The position numbers and the translations under genes are program-made. 64,000 bases of DNA from BD2-11 clade cluster bacterium bin43 (GTDB lineage: Bacteria > Gemmatimonadota > Gemmatimonadetes > Longimicrobiales > Gaopeijiaceae), in NCBI GenBank assembly GCA_002238605.1, contig MPMR01000001.1, forward strand, positions 248,001 through 312,000, written 5' to 3'. Every line of letters starts with the position of its first letter. The stretch's first letter is position 1. Below the pieces are notes generated by a model. That model was not told the DNA's origin. It ran no database searches and saw nothing but the letters and a program-made list of their open reading frames with translations. Shown here piece by piece: positions 21,193 through 28,266 of this stretch.

Positions 21193-22263
21193 ATGCATCC
21201 CAAGACCCGCGCCCGGGTGCTCAGCGCGCTCATCTGGGGCGTCTGTCTCGCGCCTCTGCTCTGGCTCGTCGTCCGCTTCCGCGAGGACGGGCTCGGCGCC
21301 AACCCCATCGAGGAGTTCACCCACTGGGGCGGCAGCTCGACGCTGATCCTGCTGCTGCTGACGCTGGCCGTGACCCCGCTGCGCCGCTGGGCGGGCTGGA
21401 ACTTGGTCCGGTACCGGCGCCGGCTCGGGCTGGCCGCATTCTTCTACGGGCTTACCCACTTCATGACCTACCTCGCCCTCGACCAGTTCTTCGCTTTCGA
21501 GTACGTCCTCGAGGACATCGCCGAGCGGCCCTACATCACGGCCGGCTTCGCCGCCTTCGTGCTGCTCATCCCGCTGGCGGTGACCTCGACCCGGGGATGG
21601 ATCCGCCGGCTGGGCAGACGCTGGCAGCGCCTCCACCGCATCGTCTACCTGGCCGCCGGACTCGGCGTGCTCCACTACTTCTGGAAAGTGAAGGCGGACA
21701 CCCTCTGGCCGATTGTGGCGGCGGTTGTGCTGGCGGTCCTGCTGGCGTCGCGTCTCAAGCCGAAGGCGGCGCGGCGCGGGAAGTCCCTGATCATCCTCGT
21801 GGCATCCGCCTGGGGGCTGACGCCCTCTCCGATGGTCGCCCAGTCGGATCCCGGCGCCGAGGCGGACCAGCAAGCCATCCTGCAGGTGGTTGACGACCTG
21901 TTCGACGCCATGCGCGCCAGGGACGGGGAGACGCTGGAGCGCATCTTCCACCCCGACACGCGCCTGATCACGGCGGGAACCAACGCCGACGGCGTCCCCG
22001 AAGTCACCGAGATCCCGATATCCCGGTTCATCTCCTCGGTGCTCGCGTCCTCGAGTTACCTCGACGAGCGCATCTACAACCCGGTGGTTCAGGTCAACAA
22101 CAACCTGGGAACCGTCTGGGTGGAGTACGATTTCTTCGCCGACGGGGAGTTCAGCCACTGCGGGGCGGACGCCTTCATGATGGGCAGAAGCGCCGACGGA
22201 TGGCAGATCGTGCAGATCGCGCACACGATGGTGCGCGAGGGGTGCCCCGAGCGCGGCGGCTAA
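21193..22263 (+). CDS. msrQ: MsrQ heme subunit fused to an NTF2/SnoaL-like domain
   Basis: A 356-residue protein, longer than the usual roughly 200. Residues 1-200 are the ferric-reductase-like multi-helix MsrQ domain (heme ligand His in LAAFFYGLTHFMTYL and RLHRIVYLAAGLGVLHY), which feeds electrons to MsrP. After a basic KAARRGK stretch there is a hydrophobic segment ending TPSPMVAQ, which looks like a retained signal peptide with its cleavage site. Residues about 218-350 form an NTF2-like fold (QAILQVVDDLFDAMRARDGE, DGWQIVQIAHTM). The second part is usually a separate secreted protein, so this is a fusion. The stop overlaps the convergent DUF4340 stop. Confidence 0.88.
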   Translation: MHPKTRARVLSALIWGVCLAPLLWLVVRFREDGLGANPIEEFTHWGGSSTLILLLLTLAVTPLRRWAGWNLVRYRRRLGLAAFFYGLTHFMTYLALDQFFAFEYVLEDIAERPYITAGFAAFVLLIPLAVTSTRGWIRRLGRRWQRLHRIVYLAAGLGVLHYFWKVKADTLWPIVAAVVLAVLLASRLKPKAARRGKSLIILVASAWGLTPSPMVAQSDPGAEADQQAILQVVDDLFDAMRARDGETLERIFHPDTRLITAGTNADGVPEVTEIPISRFISSVLASSSYLDERIYNPVVQVNNNLGTVWVEYDFFADGEFSHCGADAFMMGRSADGWQIVQIAHTMVREGCPERGG

Positions 22264-23186
22264 CTCCCTTCCCTTCCCAGCAACCGGTCCGGCTCGGGCA
22301 CGATGCGGGTGGCCCGGAAGGTCGCCAGGCGGTAGAGCGTCTCGTTACCCGCTGCGCGCACCTGGTATTCGGCGTCCACCGGCGCCAATTCCAGAGCAAG
22401 GAGCGTGTCGCCGCTCTCATTCAGCGCCACGAAGCGACGCACGTCCTCGGTCGGAAACCCGGAATCTTCCTCCTCCACGAAACCGATGGCCCGCAGTTCG
22501 TCCACCTCGTCGAGCATGTTGGCCACCGATGCCGAATCCGGCACCGCGCCCGACCCCGCGACGGTCCACCCCGCGTCGCCGCGCTCGACCACGATGACCT
22601 CGCCCGCCCGCTCCACTTCGATGGCCGCGATCGACTCGACGTCGACCCGCGCGATGAGTTTGTCGCGCCAGTCGGTGAGGGTGCGTGTGAAGGAGCCGCG
22701 CAGGTCGCCCCGCACGGTGTAGACGTCGTCCGATCCGGGCAGTCGCGCGTAGGCGGTCTGGAAGGCCGAACCCACCCGGCCCAGCGCCACGATGCGGCTT
22801 TCACCCCCGACCAGACGGAACTCCAGCATCCACGCTTCGCGGCCGGCCACGCCCAGGCGTTCGTGATTGTCCGGGTTGGCCGCGGCCAGGGCGCCCACCT
22901 CGATCTCCGAGAGCGCGGTGAACATGCGGGCCACGGCAGCGGAGTCGGCTTCGTACCTGTTCACCGTCCACTCGCCGGCGACGCGCGCCACCTCGATCTC
23001 CCGGTCGGGTCCGCTGAAGGCGGCGCTCTCGAGGGTGCGTTCGTCGATGCCCTCCAGTTCCGACGCGAGTTCGCCTGCCCCGGCTGCAAGCTCCGGGCCG
23101 CGGCCGCCCACCAGCCTGATGACCCCGTACAGGACCAGCAGTCCCGCGAGCGCGATGACAAGTCTCTGCAGTACGTTCTTGCTCAT
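22260..23186 (-). CDS. DUF4340 domain protein
   Basis: A 308-residue protein with one N-terminal transmembrane helix (LVIALAGLLVLYGVIRLV) and a large extracytoplasmic DUF4340 domain (EWTVNRYEADSAAVARMFTAL, GSDDVYTVRGDLRG, WRDKLIARVDVESI). The ATG at 23186 overlaps the stop of the permease gene (ATGA). DUF4340 proteins regularly accompany Gld-like ABC transporters. Function unknown, but co-transcription with the transporter is very likely. Confidence 0.85.
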   Translation of the reverse strand: MSKNVLQRLVIALAGLLVLYGVIRLVGGRGPELAAGAGELASELEGIDERTLESAAFSGPDREIEVARVAGEWTVNRYEADSAAVARMFTALSEIEVGALAAANPDNHERLGVAGREAWMLEFRLVGGESRIVALGRVGSAFQTAYARLPGSDDVYTVRGDLRGSFTRTLTDWRDKLIARVDVESIAAIEVERAGEVIVVERGDAGWTVAGSGAVPDSASVANMLDEVDELRAIGFVEEEDSGFPTEDVRRFVALNESGDTLLALELAPVDAEYQVRAAGNETLYRLATFRATRIVPEPDRLLGREGS

Positions 23187-25459
23187 GCGTCCACCTCGTT
23201 CCAGCGGCGTTCGGCGCGGGCCCGTCTGCCCGTGACCCGCAAGGCGCCGCCGAGGCAGAAGAAGAGGGGCATGCCCACCAGGTTCCCCCACTTGAGCGCG
23301 TTCTTGGCGAAGTCCGACTCCAGGGCCAGCGGCGGCGGCGTGCGGTCCTTGGAGCGGATGCTGATGAGCGCCTCGTCCTGCGCCAGCCAGTCGACCGAGT
23401 TGGCGGCAAAGAGCAGGTTCTGGCGGCTCGACCGGACGAACTGCTCGTCCAGGAAGTCCACGTCGGCAACAACGACCATGCGGCCGGCCCGCTCTGGACT
23501 CTCGCCCTCTTCCCCTTCCTCCGCGGGAAGCGCGAAATCCACGGCCGCCGCCACGACTTCGACGCCGAGGCTGGCCTCGTCGGGGTAGCTCTGCATGTCG
23601 GGGGCAATCGGGCTGCCCGGCGCCTGCACCCCTCCCGCGTCGGTGGTCGTCCAGAGCGGTGTCGTCCGCGCGGAATCGGTCAGCACCAGGGAGCTGGCCC
23701 ACCCGACGGAGAGGTTGTTGAGGTCGCGGGTCACCGGATGATCGGCGCCGCGGAAGAGGATGGGCCAGAGCGGGTAGGAGCGCACCACCGCGAAGATCCC
23801 CTGACGCCCCATCTGCACCCGCTCCGCCGAGGCCAGATCGTAGACGATGCCCCCGTCGTATCTCATTCCGCGCTCTTCCAGGAAGGTCTCGAGCCCCGAC
23901 GTCACCGGCGACGCCATCGGCGACTGCGGATCGATCTGCGTCCCTTCCACCAGCAGCATGGCGGCCCCTCCGCCGTCCACGTACTCCCCGAGCCGGTCCA
24001 GAGCGAGCTGCGACATGGGCTCCGTCGGCCCGGCCACCACGAGCACGTCGATGGAATCCGGATTCAGGGGAGGCACCGTGTCGCCGTCGAGCGCGACGCT
24101 CCCGATCGAGTAGCGATCGCTCAGCTCCTGCTGCAGCGCCGGCATCTCGAAGGCCTGCTTTGCGCCGAAACCGGAGGCGAAGCGCAGGCGCGGACGCGCG
24201 TCGGTGGTCATGGAGACGATCGCCGTCGCCATGCGCAGCTCCAGGTCGTCGGTGCGGTCGATGATGGGGATGATCTCGCGCTGGTCCGCGTACTGCATGG
24301 CCAGCCCGAAGTATCCGCGGCGAACCTCGAACTCGTCGTCGCGCAGGACGTTGAAGTCGAGTTCCGGGATTCCCATGCCGCTGGCTTCGGAACGCGCTTC
24401 GTCATCGTCGCCGGGGTCGATTCTCTCCACCACCAGCTGCCCGCCGCCCGCGCGCCGGAAATCGGCGAGCAGATCCTCCACGTCGCGCCGCGTGAGCTGC
24501 ACCTCCGGGGGGAGTTCGTCGGACACGAACAGCTTGAAGGTGACGAGGTCGTTGAGGTTCCCGAGCACTTCCCGGGTTCCGTCCGCCAGGGTATAGAGGT
24601 TGCCCCGGGTCAGGTCCAGACGCCCGCGGATGTAGCCGCCGAGCAGGTTCAGCACCACCACCAGAGCCGCGATCGTGATGGTGCCCACGCGCAGGCGCCG
24701 ATAGTCGCCGCGGCCATGACTCAGCCGCTCCCGGCTCACCATGGCGATGGACAGCACCAGGAAGAGGGTGGCGGTGGAGAGGAAGTACAGGACGTCGCGC
24801 AGGTCGATCACGCCGCGGGCGACATTCTCGAAGTGCCCCATCACGGAGAGTCGGGCCGCGGCGCCGCCGATCATCGGCGTCAACCCGATCTGCACGAAGG
24901 GAAGACCGATCAGTACCAGCACCAGGCTGACGGCGATGGCCAGCATGAACGACGTGATCTGGTTGCGGGTCATGCTCGACGCCCACAGGCCGATGGCCAC
25001 GAACTGGGCGGCAAGCAGCGACGCGCCCACGTACTGCGCGGCCACGATTCCCGGATCGGCCTCGGAGGCCAGGAGCACGCCGATCGACATCGGCAGCGTT
25101 CCGGCGAGCGCGACCAGGGCGAAGACCCAGTTCCCCAGGAACTTGCCGAGCACGGTCTCGATCTCGTTGAAGGGATGCGCCAGCAGCCACTCCAGCGTTC
25201 CGCTGCGGCGCTCCTCCGCGAGCGAGCGCATGGTCGCGGCCGGGATCAGGATGGCGAAGAGCCAGGGCAGGAGATCGAAGAAGGGACGCAGGGTGGCGAT
25301 GTTGGAGGCATACAGAGAACGGAACTCGATGAAGATCCCCAGCGCCAGGAAGGCCACGATCAGGATGTACGCCGTGGCCTGATCGAAAAAGCCCGCGAGT
25401 TCGCGGCGCGCGATGGTAGGCACGCCCCTGAGGCCGGCGAGAATGCTGGAGATGTTCAC
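23183..25459 (-). CDS. ABC-2 permease fused to GldG-like domain
   Basis: A 758-residue protein. Residues about 1-250 are an ABC-2-type permease with six helices (VPTIARRELAGFFDQATAYILI, AEERRSGTLEWLLAHPFNEIE), like GldF. Residues about 260-740 start with another helix, then a GldG/DUF4350 extracytoplasmic domain (SIDVLVVAGPTEPMSQLALDRL and VVVADVDFLDEQFV) and a final helix. GldF and GldG are separate proteins in Bacteroidota gliding systems; here they are one chain. The start is GTG 25459, overlapping the ATPase stop (GTGA). With the ATPase upstream and DUF4340 downstream this forms one transporter operon; the substrate is unknown. Confidence 0.87.
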   Translation of the reverse strand: MNISSILAGLRGVPTIARRELAGFFDQATAYILIVAFLALGIFIEFRSLYASNIATLRPFFDLLPWLFAILIPAATMRSLAEERRSGTLEWLLAHPFNEIETVLGKFLGNWVFALVALAGTLPMSIGVLLASEADPGIVAAQYVGASLLAAQFVAIGLWASSMTRNQITSFMLAIAVSLVLVLIGLPFVQIGLTPMIGGAAARLSVMGHFENVARGVIDLRDVLYFLSTATLFLVLSIAMVSRERLSHGRGDYRRLRVGTITIAALVVVLNLLGGYIRGRLDLTRGNLYTLADGTREVLGNLNDLVTFKLFVSDELPPEVQLTRRDVEDLLADFRRAGGGQLVVERIDPGDDDEARSEASGMGIPELDFNVLRDDEFEVRRGYFGLAMQYADQREIIPIIDRTDDLELRMATAIVSMTTDARPRLRFASGFGAKQAFEMPALQQELSDRYSIGSVALDGDTVPPLNPDSIDVLVVAGPTEPMSQLALDRLGEYVDGGGAAMLLVEGTQIDPQSPMASPVTSGLETFLEERGMRYDGGIVYDLASAERVQMGRQGIFAVVRSYPLWPILFRGADHPVTRDLNNLSVGWASSLVLTDSARTTPLWTTTDAGGVQAPGSPIAPDMQSYPDEASLGVEVVAAAVDFALPAEEGEEGESPERAGRMVVVADVDFLDEQFVRSSRQNLLFAANSVDWLAQDEALISIRSKDRTPPPLALESDFAKNALKWGNLVGMPLFFCLGGALRVTGRRARAERRWNEVDA

Positions 25460-26475
25460 TCTTCCACCTCCTCCGCCATCGGTGTGGAGACGTCATCAGC
25501 GGCTGCTCGAGCGGTTTCCCGGGCCTCCGAAGCGGCCGCTTCCCCGTCGGCATCATCGTTCGCGGTGAGCGACCGGAACACCCGCTCGAGATTGGCCTGC
25601 TCCCGGTGCAGCTCCCAGAGGGCCCACCCCCGGCGGGTTGCGAGCTGGAAGATGGTCGGGCGAAGCTCGGCGCCGGACGCGACCTCAAGGCGCACGCGCG
25701 TGCGTCCGTCCCGCGTGTCCGCCGTGGCGGAGGAAACCCCCTCCAGGGCGGCGAGCGCCTCGGACACGCCCTCGCCCTCGGCTTCGACCAGATAGTACGC
25801 GCCCCCGGTGCGGTCGGCGGCCAGCTCCGCCACGGTGCCGTCGGCGACCAGCCGCCCGCCCGAGATAATCAGCAGCCGCTGGCAGGTGGCCTCGACCTCC
25901 TGCATGACGTGGGTGCTGAGGAGGACTGTGCGCTCGGCTCCCAGCGCATTGATCAGCTTGCGGATCTCGACCCGCTGGTTGGGATCGAGGCCCTCGGTGG
26001 GCTCGTCGAGCACCAGGATCTCCGGGCGGTGCAGGATCGCCGCCGCCAGCCCGATACGCTGCCGGTATCCCTTGGAGCACTCGCCGATCGGACGGAAGAA
26101 GACCGCCTCGAGCGCGGTCTCCTCCACCGCGTCGCGGACGGCCCGCCGGGCATCCGCGCCGCGGATCCTGCGGATCTCGGCCACGTAGTCGAGGTACTCC
26201 GCGACCAGCATGTCCTCATACAGCGGATTCGCCTCCGGCAGATAGCCCACGCGCCGCTTGGCTCCCCTGAGGTCGGTCTCGATGGGCACGCCATCGAACT
26301 GCACGACCCCCGAATCGGGCTGGAGCGTCCCGGTCAGCATGCGCATGGTGGTGGTCTTGCCGGCCGCGTTCGGTCCCAGAAAACCCACCACTTCCCCCCG
26401 GTCCACCTCGAAAGACACGTCGTTGACGGCTACGAGGGGGCCGAAGCGCTTGGTCACCCCTTGTACGGCGATCAT
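25456..26475 (-). CDS. ABC transporter ATPase (GldA/CcmA-like)
   Basis: A 339-residue ABC ATPase. Walker A is GPNAAGKTT (34-42), the signature region CSKGYRQRIGLAAAIL (degenerate LSxGQ), Walker B ILVLDEPTEGLDP, and the switch His in LLSTHVMQEVE. The C-terminal extension (about 220-339) carries a regulatory-type subdomain and an Ala/Glu-rich tail. The ATG has a strong GGAAGGAGGACGGA Shine-Dalgarno. It is the first gene of the three-gene minus-strand transporter operon and is preceded by a leader with an intrinsic terminator (26524-26556). Confidence 0.93.
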   Translation of the reverse strand: MIAVQGVTKRFGPLVAVNDVSFEVDRGEVVGFLGPNAAGKTTTMRMLTGTLQPDSGVVQFDGVPIETDLRGAKRRVGYLPEANPLYEDMLVAEYLDYVAEIRRIRGADARRAVRDAVEETALEAVFFRPIGECSKGYRQRIGLAAAILHRPEILVLDEPTEGLDPNQRVEIRKLINALGAERTVLLSTHVMQEVEATCQRLLIISGGRLVADGTVAELAADRTGGAYYLVEAEGEGVSEALAALEGVSSATADTRDGRTRVRLEVASGAELRPTIFQLATRRGWALWELHREQANLERVFRSLTANDDADGEAAASEARETARAAADDVSTPMAEEVEE

Positions 26476-26523
26476 TCCGTCCTCCTTCCGCGTTGTCTCT
26501 CCCGCGCCCCGCCGGCCTACACG

Positions 26524-26556
26524 AAAAAAGCCGCGCGAATCTCGTCATCGCGCGGC
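26524..26556 (-). terminator. intrinsic terminator in the ABC-operon leader (possible attenuator)
   Basis: On the minus strand, a perfect 9-bp stem GCCGCGCGA / TCGCGCGGC (26556-26548 and 26538-26530) with a 9-nt loop, followed by six T (26529-26524). It lies about 50 nt upstream of the ATPase ATG and downstream of a promoter-like pair at 26657-26629, so it would act inside the leader. The sequence TCGCGCGCGG (26587-26578) could pair with its 5' arm as an antiterminator. Confidence 0.7.
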
Positions 26557-26628
26557 GCCGGGGCAGCCCGTGCCGACCCGCGCGCGAGCAACTCACTGGT
26601 TGCCCCCGTTTTCGCGCGGGGGCGAACG

Positions 26629-26657
26629 ATTCTACAATGTGATGCCGGCGATGTCCA
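26629..26657 (-). promoter_or_regulatory. sigma70-like promoter for the ABC operon
   Basis: Minus strand TGGACA (26657-26652), 17-bp spacer, TAGAAT (26634-26629); each box is one mismatch from consensus. The expected start near 26622 gives a leader of about 147 nt. It overlaps a plus-strand TACAAT (26633-26638), so the region may be divergent. Confidence 0.5.
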
Positions 26658-26698
26658 GAAGGTTTTCTCCTCCATGCCCACGGGAGCACACGCCATGA
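26642..26698 (+). CDS. possible 18-residue leader peptide coupled to the MBL gene
   Basis: A short open frame starting ATG 3 nt after a TACAAT box and ending in a TGA that overlaps the downstream ATG at 26695 (ATGA). The peptide reads MPAMSRRFSPPCPREHTP. Coupling geometry is the only support; it may be chance. Confidence 0.25.
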   Translation: MPAMSRRFSPPCPREHTP

Positions 26699-28266
26699 CC
26701 GACAGGCCGACCGACCAGCACCGACCCCACCGGACGCACCGGCCTGACAACTGCGCATGCCCCGGCCGCGGACCGGAGCGTGCGCTCGGGCTCCCGTTCC
26801 TCGCCGTTGCATTCGCCGGTCTCGCGTGCGCCGGTTCGGGGGATGAAGCCGGGGGAGGCAGCGCAGGCGGGACCGGAGCCGCCGCGGCCATCCCGGCCAG
26901 CGAGCTGGTCCGCACCGCCAACCCGTTCGCGCGCGGCTATACCGAGGAGGACTTCCCGCGGCTGCGCGAGCTGGCCGACGGCGTGTACTCCTACGAGGCG
27001 CTGCGCTCGGCCGGGGACCAGCGCTTCACCACCGTCAGCATGTTCGTGGTCACCGACGAGGGCGTGCTGGTGGCCGACGGCCAGGGCAACGTGGCGGAGA
27101 CGCAGCGCCTGATCGACCACATCGCCTCGGTCACCGACCAGCCCATCACTCACGTGGTGATCTGCTCCGACCACGGCGACCACACCGCCGGCAACTCCGC
27201 CTTCCCCGCGGACGCGGAGTTCATCGCCCATCCCACCTCGGCGCGGGCGCTGGAGGCCACGGCCGCCAATCCCGACCGGCCCGCCGGCGCACCCGCGGTG
27301 GTGCTGCCCACCCGCCTGGTCGACGAGCGCGAGGTGCTCGAGCTGGGCGGCCGGACCATCGAGATCCTCTTCCTCGGACGCGCGCACACCGGCGGCGACC
27401 TCGTCGTCCATCTTCCCGAAGAGGACATCCTCTTCATGAGCGAGGCCTATCTGCACCGCGTCTTCCCCGCCATGCGCACCGCCTATCCCAGCGAATGGGT
27501 GGCGATGATCGAGCAGGCTCAGGCGATGGAGGTGGAGACCTACGTCCCGGGGCATGGCTTCGTCGATTCCCCGGAGGTCCTGCGGGAGGAGCTGGAGGTG
27601 TTCCGTCAGGCCGTGGTGCAGGTGATCGACGAAAGCCGTCGTCTGCACGGACAGGGGCTCAGCCTGGAGGAGGCGCAGGCCAGCGCCGACTTTGGAGCGC
27701 TGGGCGACTGGTGGCTGTCGGAGAGCCAGGCTTCCCGCGCCATCCAGCAGGTGTACGCGGAGCTCGACGGCATGCTTCCGCCGATGGAAGGCGAGGGGGA
27801 TGAAGCGGAGGATGGCCGCGAGGGCGGGGAAGAGCACGAGGGTGAGGGTGAAGGCGAACACGGCGAGGGCGAAGAGGGCGGCGAGCACGGTGAGGGCGGC
27901 GAGCACGGCGAAGAGGGCGACCACGACGAAGAAGGCGAGGAATCGGGCGAATACGTCGCCGCCGGGGAAACCTGGGACGAGACCCGGAGGGGCGCCCGCC
28001 TGATCCTCTCATTCGATCGAGCCCGGGGCGCTTTCGTCGGCGCCGTCGAGAACACGACGCAGCAGCCGATGTGCGCCGTGCGGGTCGAAGTTCATCTGTC
28101 CACCGGCACCGAACTGGGGCCGACCGCACGCACGGACCTTGCGGCTGGCACATCCATGGAAGTGGTGCTGTCGGCGGAGGGCGAACCCTTCGACGCCTGG
28201 ACGGCCCATCCGGAGGTTTCGGCGTGCGCCGGCTCGTCGATCCAGCTTACCGCTCCGCTCAGATAG
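26695..28266 (+). CDS. metallo-beta-lactamase-fold lipoprotein with altered metal ligands
   Basis: A 523-residue exported protein. ATG 26695 has GGGAG 8 nt upstream (an in-frame ATG at 26674 is the alternative). The signal ends in FAGLACAG, a non-canonical lipobox. The MBL domain is residues about 55-330. The usual HxHxDH motif reads SDHGDH, so the first His is Ser; GRAHTGGD and PGHG are kept, while the bridging Asp region reads FMSEAYL (Glu). Residues about 365-420 form a Gly/Glu/His-rich linker, then a beta-sandwich-like domain. It resembles the SoxH-type hydrolase at 57562. Hydrolase activity is uncertain because of the substitutions. Confidence 0.8.
   Translation: MTDRPTDQHRPHRTHRPDNCACPGRGPERALGLPFLAVAFAGLACAGSGDEAGGGSAGGTGAAAAIPASELVRTANPFARGYTEEDFPRLRELADGVYSYEALRSAGDQRFTTVSMFVVTDEGVLVADGQGNVAETQRLIDHIASVTDQPITHVVICSDHGDHTAGNSAFPADAEFIAHPTSARALEATAANPDRPAGAPAVVLPTRLVDEREVLELGGRTIEILFLGRAHTGGDLVVHLPEEDILFMSEAYLHRVFPAMRTAYPSEWVAMIEQAQAMEVETYVPGHGFVDSPEVLREELEVFRQAVVQVIDESRRLHGQGLSLEEAQASADFGALGDWWLSESQASRAIQQVYAELDGMLPPMEGEGDEAEDGREGGEEHEGEGEGEHGEGEEGGEHGEGGEHGEEGDHDEEGEESGEYVAAGETWDETRRGARLILSFDRARGAFVGAVENTTQQPMCAVRVEVHLSTGTELGPTARTDLAAGTSMEVVLSAEGEPFDAWTAHPEVSACAGSSIQLTAPLR
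27790..27950 (+). repeat. low-complexity tract encoding Gly/Glu/His-rich linker
   Basis: Degenerate GAG/GGC/CAC-rich codon repeats in frame inside the MBL lipoprotein gene. They encode repeated GEHGE-type units between the MBL domain and the C-terminal domain; the His spacing could bind metal ions. Confidence 0.75.

Follow-up and report, generated by a model that had tools for sequence, protein, structure and literature searches.

A predicted family of transcription attenuators ahead of an ABC transporter operon in Gemmatimonadota

Background

The cis-regulatory families collected in Rfam include riboswitches, T-boxes and known leaders, and T-boxes are recognized by their Stem I and by an antiterminator bulge with a UGGNACCGCG-like sequence. 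Other attenuators have three states and are controlled by a protein; PyrR provides one example, and the rplJL (L10) leader of Bacillus subtilis is reportedly another. The closest described kind to the leader reported here is formed by the 'ABC-leaders' of Naville and Gautheret (2010), predicted terminator/antiterminator leaders before ABC-transporter operons, for which the signal is given as unknown; most of them match no known cis-regulator, their conserved motifs suggest one substrate each, and the five examples shown come from Pasteurellaceae, lactobacilli, other Firmicutes and bacilli, while the name 'Gemmatimonas' does not occur in the main text of that paper (PMC2965389). In B. subtilis, the bmrB/bmrCD system is described as a leader-peptide, terminator-based attenuation of an ABC transporter operon that operates through alternative stem-loops (PMC4191407).

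Here we analyze a leader located in a 64,000-nt stretch of the genome of BD2-11 clade cluster bacterium bin43, a member of Gemmatimonadota (contig MPMR01000001.1, positions 248,001 to 312,000), referred to below as the window. As far as the published description of the 'ABC-leaders' goes, it shares with them a predicted terminator and antiterminator ahead of an ABC operon, but it is found in several genera of Gemmatimonadota and precedes what we take to be a Gld-type ABC operon, whose genes are given GldA/Gld names on this assumption. In common with rplJL and PyrR it has predicted anti-antiterminator, antiterminator and terminator structures that exclude one another, whereas neither a ribosomal nor a pyrimidine gene is part of its operon. 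With bmrB/bmrCD as described it shares the probable attenuation of an ABC operon by a terminator and alternative stem-loops, but it has no conserved leader peptide.

Results

The locus and its promoter

Inspection of the window finds all elements of the leader in place on the minus strand (Table 1). The sequence TGGACA is separated by 17 nt from TAGAAT and is followed by a leader of 153 nt and then by the ATG at 26475, with transcription predicted to start near 26622. This near-consensus promoter, noticed already in the sequence-only reading, is the sole promoter-like match between positions 25500 and 31000, where 0.4 are expected from shuffles, and it has exactly one copy in the whole 4.47-Mb genome. 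At the other end of the leader, the final 20 nt upstream of the ATG exhibit a mean identity of 0.96 within the window's genus. For the DUF4340 gene, the third of the operon, the true start lies probably further downstream than the start of the listed ORF.

In the -10 region (26629-26638) the minus strand contains TAGAAT and the plus strand TACAAT; this region could therefore serve a divergent start of the gene at 26674 (+), which encodes a protein of the metallo-beta-lactamase fold. That protein contains an acidic, His-rich stretch of low complexity with GEHGE/GEGG-type repeats (27790-27950, plus strand). Because this neighbour is divergent, the terminator in the leader has no adjoining upstream minus-strand gene to end.

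Table 1. Leader elements and genes of the operon, numbered from the first letter of the window
Feature	Position	Strand	Basis
-35 element TGGACA	26652..26657	minus	scan; kept in orthologous upstream regions
-10 element TAGAAT	26629..26634	minus	scan; ortholog conservation
5' hairpin CCCCCG-CGCGAAAA-CGGGGG (strands 1 + 2)	26603..26622	minus	invariant in 8 distinct genus leaders; folds
Strand 1 CCCCGCGCGA, alternative partner of the antiterminator strand (sequestering pairing 1:3)	26612..26621	minus	consensus fold, 8 genus leaders
Small hairpin GTGAG-TTG-CTCGC, overlapping the antiterminator strand	26584..26596	minus	folds
Antiterminator strand 3 TCGCGCGCGG	26578..26587	minus	complementarity to terminator 5' arm
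Terminator 5' arm (strand 4) GCCGCGCGA	26548..26556	minus	sequence; window and genome pattern scans
Terminator 3' arm (strand 5) TCGCGCGGC	26530..26538	minus	sequence; window and genome pattern scans
Terminator T-run, 6 T	26524..26529	minus	sequence; window scan
Ribosome-binding site AGGAGG	26481..26486	minus	sequence; genus identity upstream of ATG
Gene 1, ABC ATPase (GldA-like)	25456..26475	minus	ORF; Pfam ABC_tran E 4.3e-27
Gene 2, ABC-2 permease with fused GldG-like part	23183..25459	minus	Pfam ABC2_membrane_2/3, DUF7088, ABC_transp_aux
Gene 3, DUF4340 protein	22260..23702	minus	Pfam DUF4340 E 4.2e-21, residues 250-411 of open frame

The terminator

The terminator (26556-26524) comprises a perfect 9-bp stem, a 9-nt loop and TTTTTT, just as had been noticed from the sequence. 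On both strands of the window it is the single perfect stem of at least 8 bp with a T-tract, such stems being absent from 40 dinucleotide shuffles of the whole window, and its pattern occurs once in the 4.47-Mb genome. A stock terminator scan overlooks it, because the loop has 9 nt and the scan allows 8. Between the T-run and the ATG of the ATPase there are 48 nt, close to the approximately 50 nt estimated before. Thus, a promoter is followed on the same strand by an intrinsic terminator before the first start codon, as expected of an attenuator, and this arrangement recurs in orthologs.

Pairings in the window and its genus

Among 8 distinct leaders from the window's genus, mean pairwise identity is 0.79-0.99 across positions 26655-26516; it is 0-0.59 further upstream of 26655 and 0.50 in the spacer between the terminator and the ribosome-binding site, the length of which differs by tens of bases within the genus. 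In three leaders (L051, L053 and L050) the same spacer carries about 70-85 extra nucleotides that are mutually alike. Two small hairpins had been proposed upstream of the terminator. The first, CCCCCG/CGGGGG, is real and invariant in the genus, but the second, GCAAC/GTTGC, is limited to the window's species: in the alignment of 8, its GCAAC side is missing from the 7 other leaders, which have GGGGGAGACC or a shorter form where the window has GGGGGCAACC. Most leaders of the genus can form a G(C/T)GAG-UUG-CUCGC hairpin instead.

The competing segment TCGCGCGCGG (26587-26578) can indeed form 7 bp with the 5' arm of the terminator, as the sequence-only reading had suggested. In the window's leader, the predicted nascent fold pairs 11 nt of this arm and the terminator loop with upstream sequence. 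In the consensus fold of the 8 genus leaders, calculated for the stretch made before the terminator, the 5' end CCCCGCGCGA pairs with the antiterminator strand, and the alternatives thereby make up a chain that runs from the 5' hairpin through the sequestering pairing and the antiterminator to the terminator. Such a chain is the classical pattern of an attenuator. The minimum-energy fold of the same stretch in the window's own leader retains the 5' hairpin, and hence the sequestering pairing is there an alternative and not the predicted ground state. The whole leader of the window is unremarkable in stability for its composition (z -0.44 against shuffles). Since the switch is conserved in sequence within this genus, its pairings there have no covariation of their own, and strand 1 in particular shows none because the segment is invariant.

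Orthologous leaders across the phylum

Searched with the ATPase, 59 relatives (a number that includes the own genome) gave 23 matches at E<=1e-80, and a collection of genome contigs gave 80 loci. The upstream regions of orthologs with at least 60% ATPase identity make up a set of 61 distinct leaders; same-genome duplicates were merged by identical last 150 nt, the same species may recur within the set, and leaders below this identity (from Chloroflexota and others) are omitted from the ortholog counts. Five contigs in the collection are labelled Gammaproteobacteria (L049, L050, L051, L053, L096), and as their ATPases group with Gemmatimonadota in the tree, these labels are probably wrong.

Among 60 upstream regions of orthologs, 31 contain the promoter exactly as TGGACA-N17-TAGAAT and 50 fit TGGACA-N16..19-TANNNT; L014, with its 25 nt of upstream sequence, is outside this count. 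An automatic finder reported a hairpin with a T-tract in 41 of the 61 leaders, its picks being weak or misplaced in L021, L075, L017 and L085. The remaining 20 comprise nine short leaders, one without upstream sequence, two (L047 and L048) in which the terminator stem is present and the T-run interrupted, and eight with none. Lack of conservation in related genomes had been named beforehand as an outcome that would speak against the leader; on these counts it is found across the phylum. In the nascent folds predicted for most leaders, the 5' arm of the terminator is paired with upstream sequence; the terminator itself is part of most full-length folds, and the energy differences are small. Folding is clearest in L173 and L072.

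By eye, the alignment was sorted into types A1 (the window's genus, 8 leaders), A2 (6), A3 (10 long leaders and three found later), B (9) and C (5). Among type B are L017 and L085, in which the finder had picked another hairpin; these two together with L079 and L091 carry a variable extra segment of about 45-110 nt, inserted after the sequestering hairpin and before the terminator ends.

Nine of the 61 leaders, that of L069 among them, are short, and all nine retain the promoter. In a tree of the 61 ATPases and three outgroups they occupy three separate positions within the B and C leaders, with four changes of the short-leader label, at least three of them forced by well-supported branches. 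Four have a length of 24-26 nt, and others keep a remnant that resembles the terminator 3' arm. The leader thus seems to have been deleted repeatedly, in at least three clades, with promoter and ribosome-binding site kept.

Antiterminator and sequestering pairings compared

In types A2 and A3, GCUCGAC is complementary to GUCGAGC in the 5' arm of the terminator, and in type B, GCUGAC pairs with GUCAGC; types A and B differ by a lost C in one strand and a lost G in its partner. With anchors picked by eye from alignments and complementarity, 28 related leaders form 122 of 133 possible antiterminator pairs in type A and 51 of 54 in type B; of 6 pairs, 5.63 and 5.67 are formed by the types' own strands, and 3.92 and 4.05 when the strands are swapped between types. 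Within type B, L079 exhibits a change from U-A to C-G. A conserved antiterminator pairing that excludes the terminator is thus found by the anchored count, but not by energies alone. The duplex energy of the upstream strand with the terminator 5' arm is better than in dinucleotide shuffles (p<0.05) in just 4 of 39 leaders, and with the whole upstream region allowed, own combinations are not generally better than swaps among leaders; the leaders are GC-rich and pairing by chance is easy. This test being near chance, raw complementarity was dropped as evidence and the anchored count used. In an alignment test, the type A antiterminator alone showed no more covariation than shuffles, as its two strands are nearly invariant.

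The alternative for the antiterminator strand in types A2, A3 and B is a local sequestering hairpin of 34-42 nt, which consists of 2 bp, a 1x1 mismatch, 3 bp, a 2x2 loop and a stem. The lower-stem pairs are present in 22, 25, 23, 25 and 25 of 27 leaders; between types, one of these pairs changes from C-G to U-A, and the upper stem varies freely in sequence while its pairing stays (GGCCGG/CCGGCC, GGUC/GGCC, GGAAC/GUUCC). Mean z over the 27 hairpins, in segments whose ends were chosen to pair, is -1.23, with 14 of 27 below -1. For the type A hairpin and terminator, counts of two-sided changes exceed those of shuffles just modestly.

Operon specificity

Two covariance models were built, R1 from 15 leaders of types A2 and A3 (L064 omitted) and R2 from 6 type B leaders (L017, L085 and L073 omitted). 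The search over leaders of homologous operons, which had been proposed as a check, yielded strong matches of both at this operon only. At 50 bits or more, R1 has one match each in 14 of 16 type A genomes, all at the operon (two assigned to it by coordinates), and the rest score at most 27 bits; the presence of these matches is circular, as the same leaders trained the model, but their uniqueness is not. In the 59 relatives R1 has two matches of at least 50 bits, both at the operon. Among 395 genomes of the phylum it has 15 matches at E<=1e-5, of which 12 reach 50 bits, all at the operon and including three absent from the training set (L173, L175, L179), while the remaining three score 34.8-38.9 bits and lie away from it; whenever more than 40 genomes were searched, the filters were stricter and lose weak matches. 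R2 has 12 matches at E<=1e-4 in the 395 genomes, 10 of them before the ATPase ortholog and the two weakest elsewhere. Two of the 10, L189 and L191, share their ATPase match values with the type C loci L086 and L082, and R2 therefore seems to extend to type C, from which no leader was used in its training. The window's own leader scores just 13.7 bits with R1, and what links its genus with the others is therefore promoter, position and layout rather than this model. Among the Chloroflexota orthologs in L099-L124, R1 found no match at E<=1.

One sequence met in the search, L182 (positions 143-229), belongs to another genome of Gemmatimonadota, scores 34.8 bits with R1 and has no Rfam match. It has a strong terminator, with seven T, that ends some 20 nt upstream of the start codon (ATG) of an ORF which resembles, by its sequence, a glutaminyl-tRNA synthetase, and it may be a separate attenuator.

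Discussion

We propose, with a probability of roughly 0.78, that this leader acts in cis to attenuate transcription of the ABC operon, by way of sequestering, antiterminator and terminator pairings that exclude one another. Attenuation appears well supported by the comparison of sequences, namely by the conserved promoter, terminator and competing strand, by changes that keep the pairings, by operon specificity and by repeated leader loss. RNA polymerase would initiate near 26622, and the nascent leader would hold competing pairings. In the first, a sequestering structure would hold the antiterminator strand; in the window's genus this would be mainly the extreme 5' end CCCCGCGCGA paired with TCGCGCGCGGG, and in other clades the local hairpin with its 2 bp, 1x1 mismatch, 3 bp, 2x2 loop and stem. 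In the second, the antiterminator strand would pair with the terminator 5' arm, leading to read-through, and in the third the terminator would form ahead of the ATG and transcription would stop. Stabilizing the sequestering structure should then lower expression of the operon, and freeing the antiterminator strand should raise it. We infer that termination takes place and that its balance is regulated. The sensor would most likely be an RNA-binding protein or a pausing polymerase on the hairpin rather than a metabolite aptamer. We consider it improbable that the 34-42-nt sequestering hairpin acts by itself as the minimal sensor of a signal dedicated to the Gld-type transporter, with sensor and switch in one hairpin.

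Attenuation or an unidentified riboswitch had been offered together by the sequence-only reading, and it is the former that the comparison supports. In a riboswitch, an aptamer would drive the same terminator switch by binding a small molecule such as the substrate of the transporter; such a role would suit an operon-specific leader ahead of a transporter, as well as the symmetric internal loops that recur in the hairpin of types A and B, and it was left open for other ABC-leaders in the text of Naville and Gautheret (PMC2965389). However, no Rfam match reaches its gathering score, few invariant unpaired bases are found beyond the switching strands, and there is no long invariant core resembling an aptamer. 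Moreover, the shortest terminator-bearing leaders, of 118-123 nt, have about 28 nt and one 34-42-nt hairpin before the terminator; as these short members give an aptamer little room, a riboswitch is possible but not indicated, and we regard it as unlikely.

Still less probable is that a ribosome on a short leader ORF decides which hairpin forms. There is a precedent among ABC transporters in bmrCD, as described (PMC4191407), and four of the 8 genus leaders carry a 14-codon ORF with a TTG start (MLARGxARAARAAR) that ends in the terminator loop and has an SD-like stretch upstream, yet this ORF is absent, shifted or extended in the other four, and that of the window runs past the terminator. A conserved short ORF over the switching strands, as expected of a leader-peptide attenuator, was not found: no ORF is common to the types, and 17 of 39 leaders lack any ORF of at least 4 codons that ends before the terminator. 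An element without a switch, be it a fixed partial terminator or the end of a small-RNA gene, would account for antiterminator energy tests near chance in most single leaders and for the presence of the terminator in most full-length minimum-energy folds. It would not readily account for compensating changes on both antiterminator strands between types or for the leader and terminator remaining tied to this operon; besides, four orthologs have the same promoter ahead of a leader of 24-26 nt that lacks a terminator, which shows that the promoter serves the operon, and we consider an unregulated element improbable.

Against Rfam release 15, the window has no match at the gathering score, and at a relaxed E-value the scanned leaders have matches far below gathering scores, or none. 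A T-box was considered and rejected, as no Rfam T-box match was obtained in the window or the scanned leaders. In the open-licence literature (titles and abstract starts), the leader is not described in work on Gemmatimonadota RNA regulation or on gldA/gldG attenuation, and nothing relevant was found for DUF4340 with ABC_transp_aux. Very probably, this is a real operon-specific leader family, absent from Rfam 15 as scanned, undescribed, and of a known attenuator kind.

Conclusions

If the proposed attenuation is true, the leaders constitute a phylum-level family of transcription attenuators in a group of bacteria where RNA regulation is almost unstudied. The trigger of the switch, once found, would point to the role of the transporter. 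As the leader has apparently been lost several times while the promoter stayed, nature offers comparisons of the operon in switched and unswitched form. Should the hairpin itself prove to be the sensor, it would represent a new class of very small regulatory RNA.
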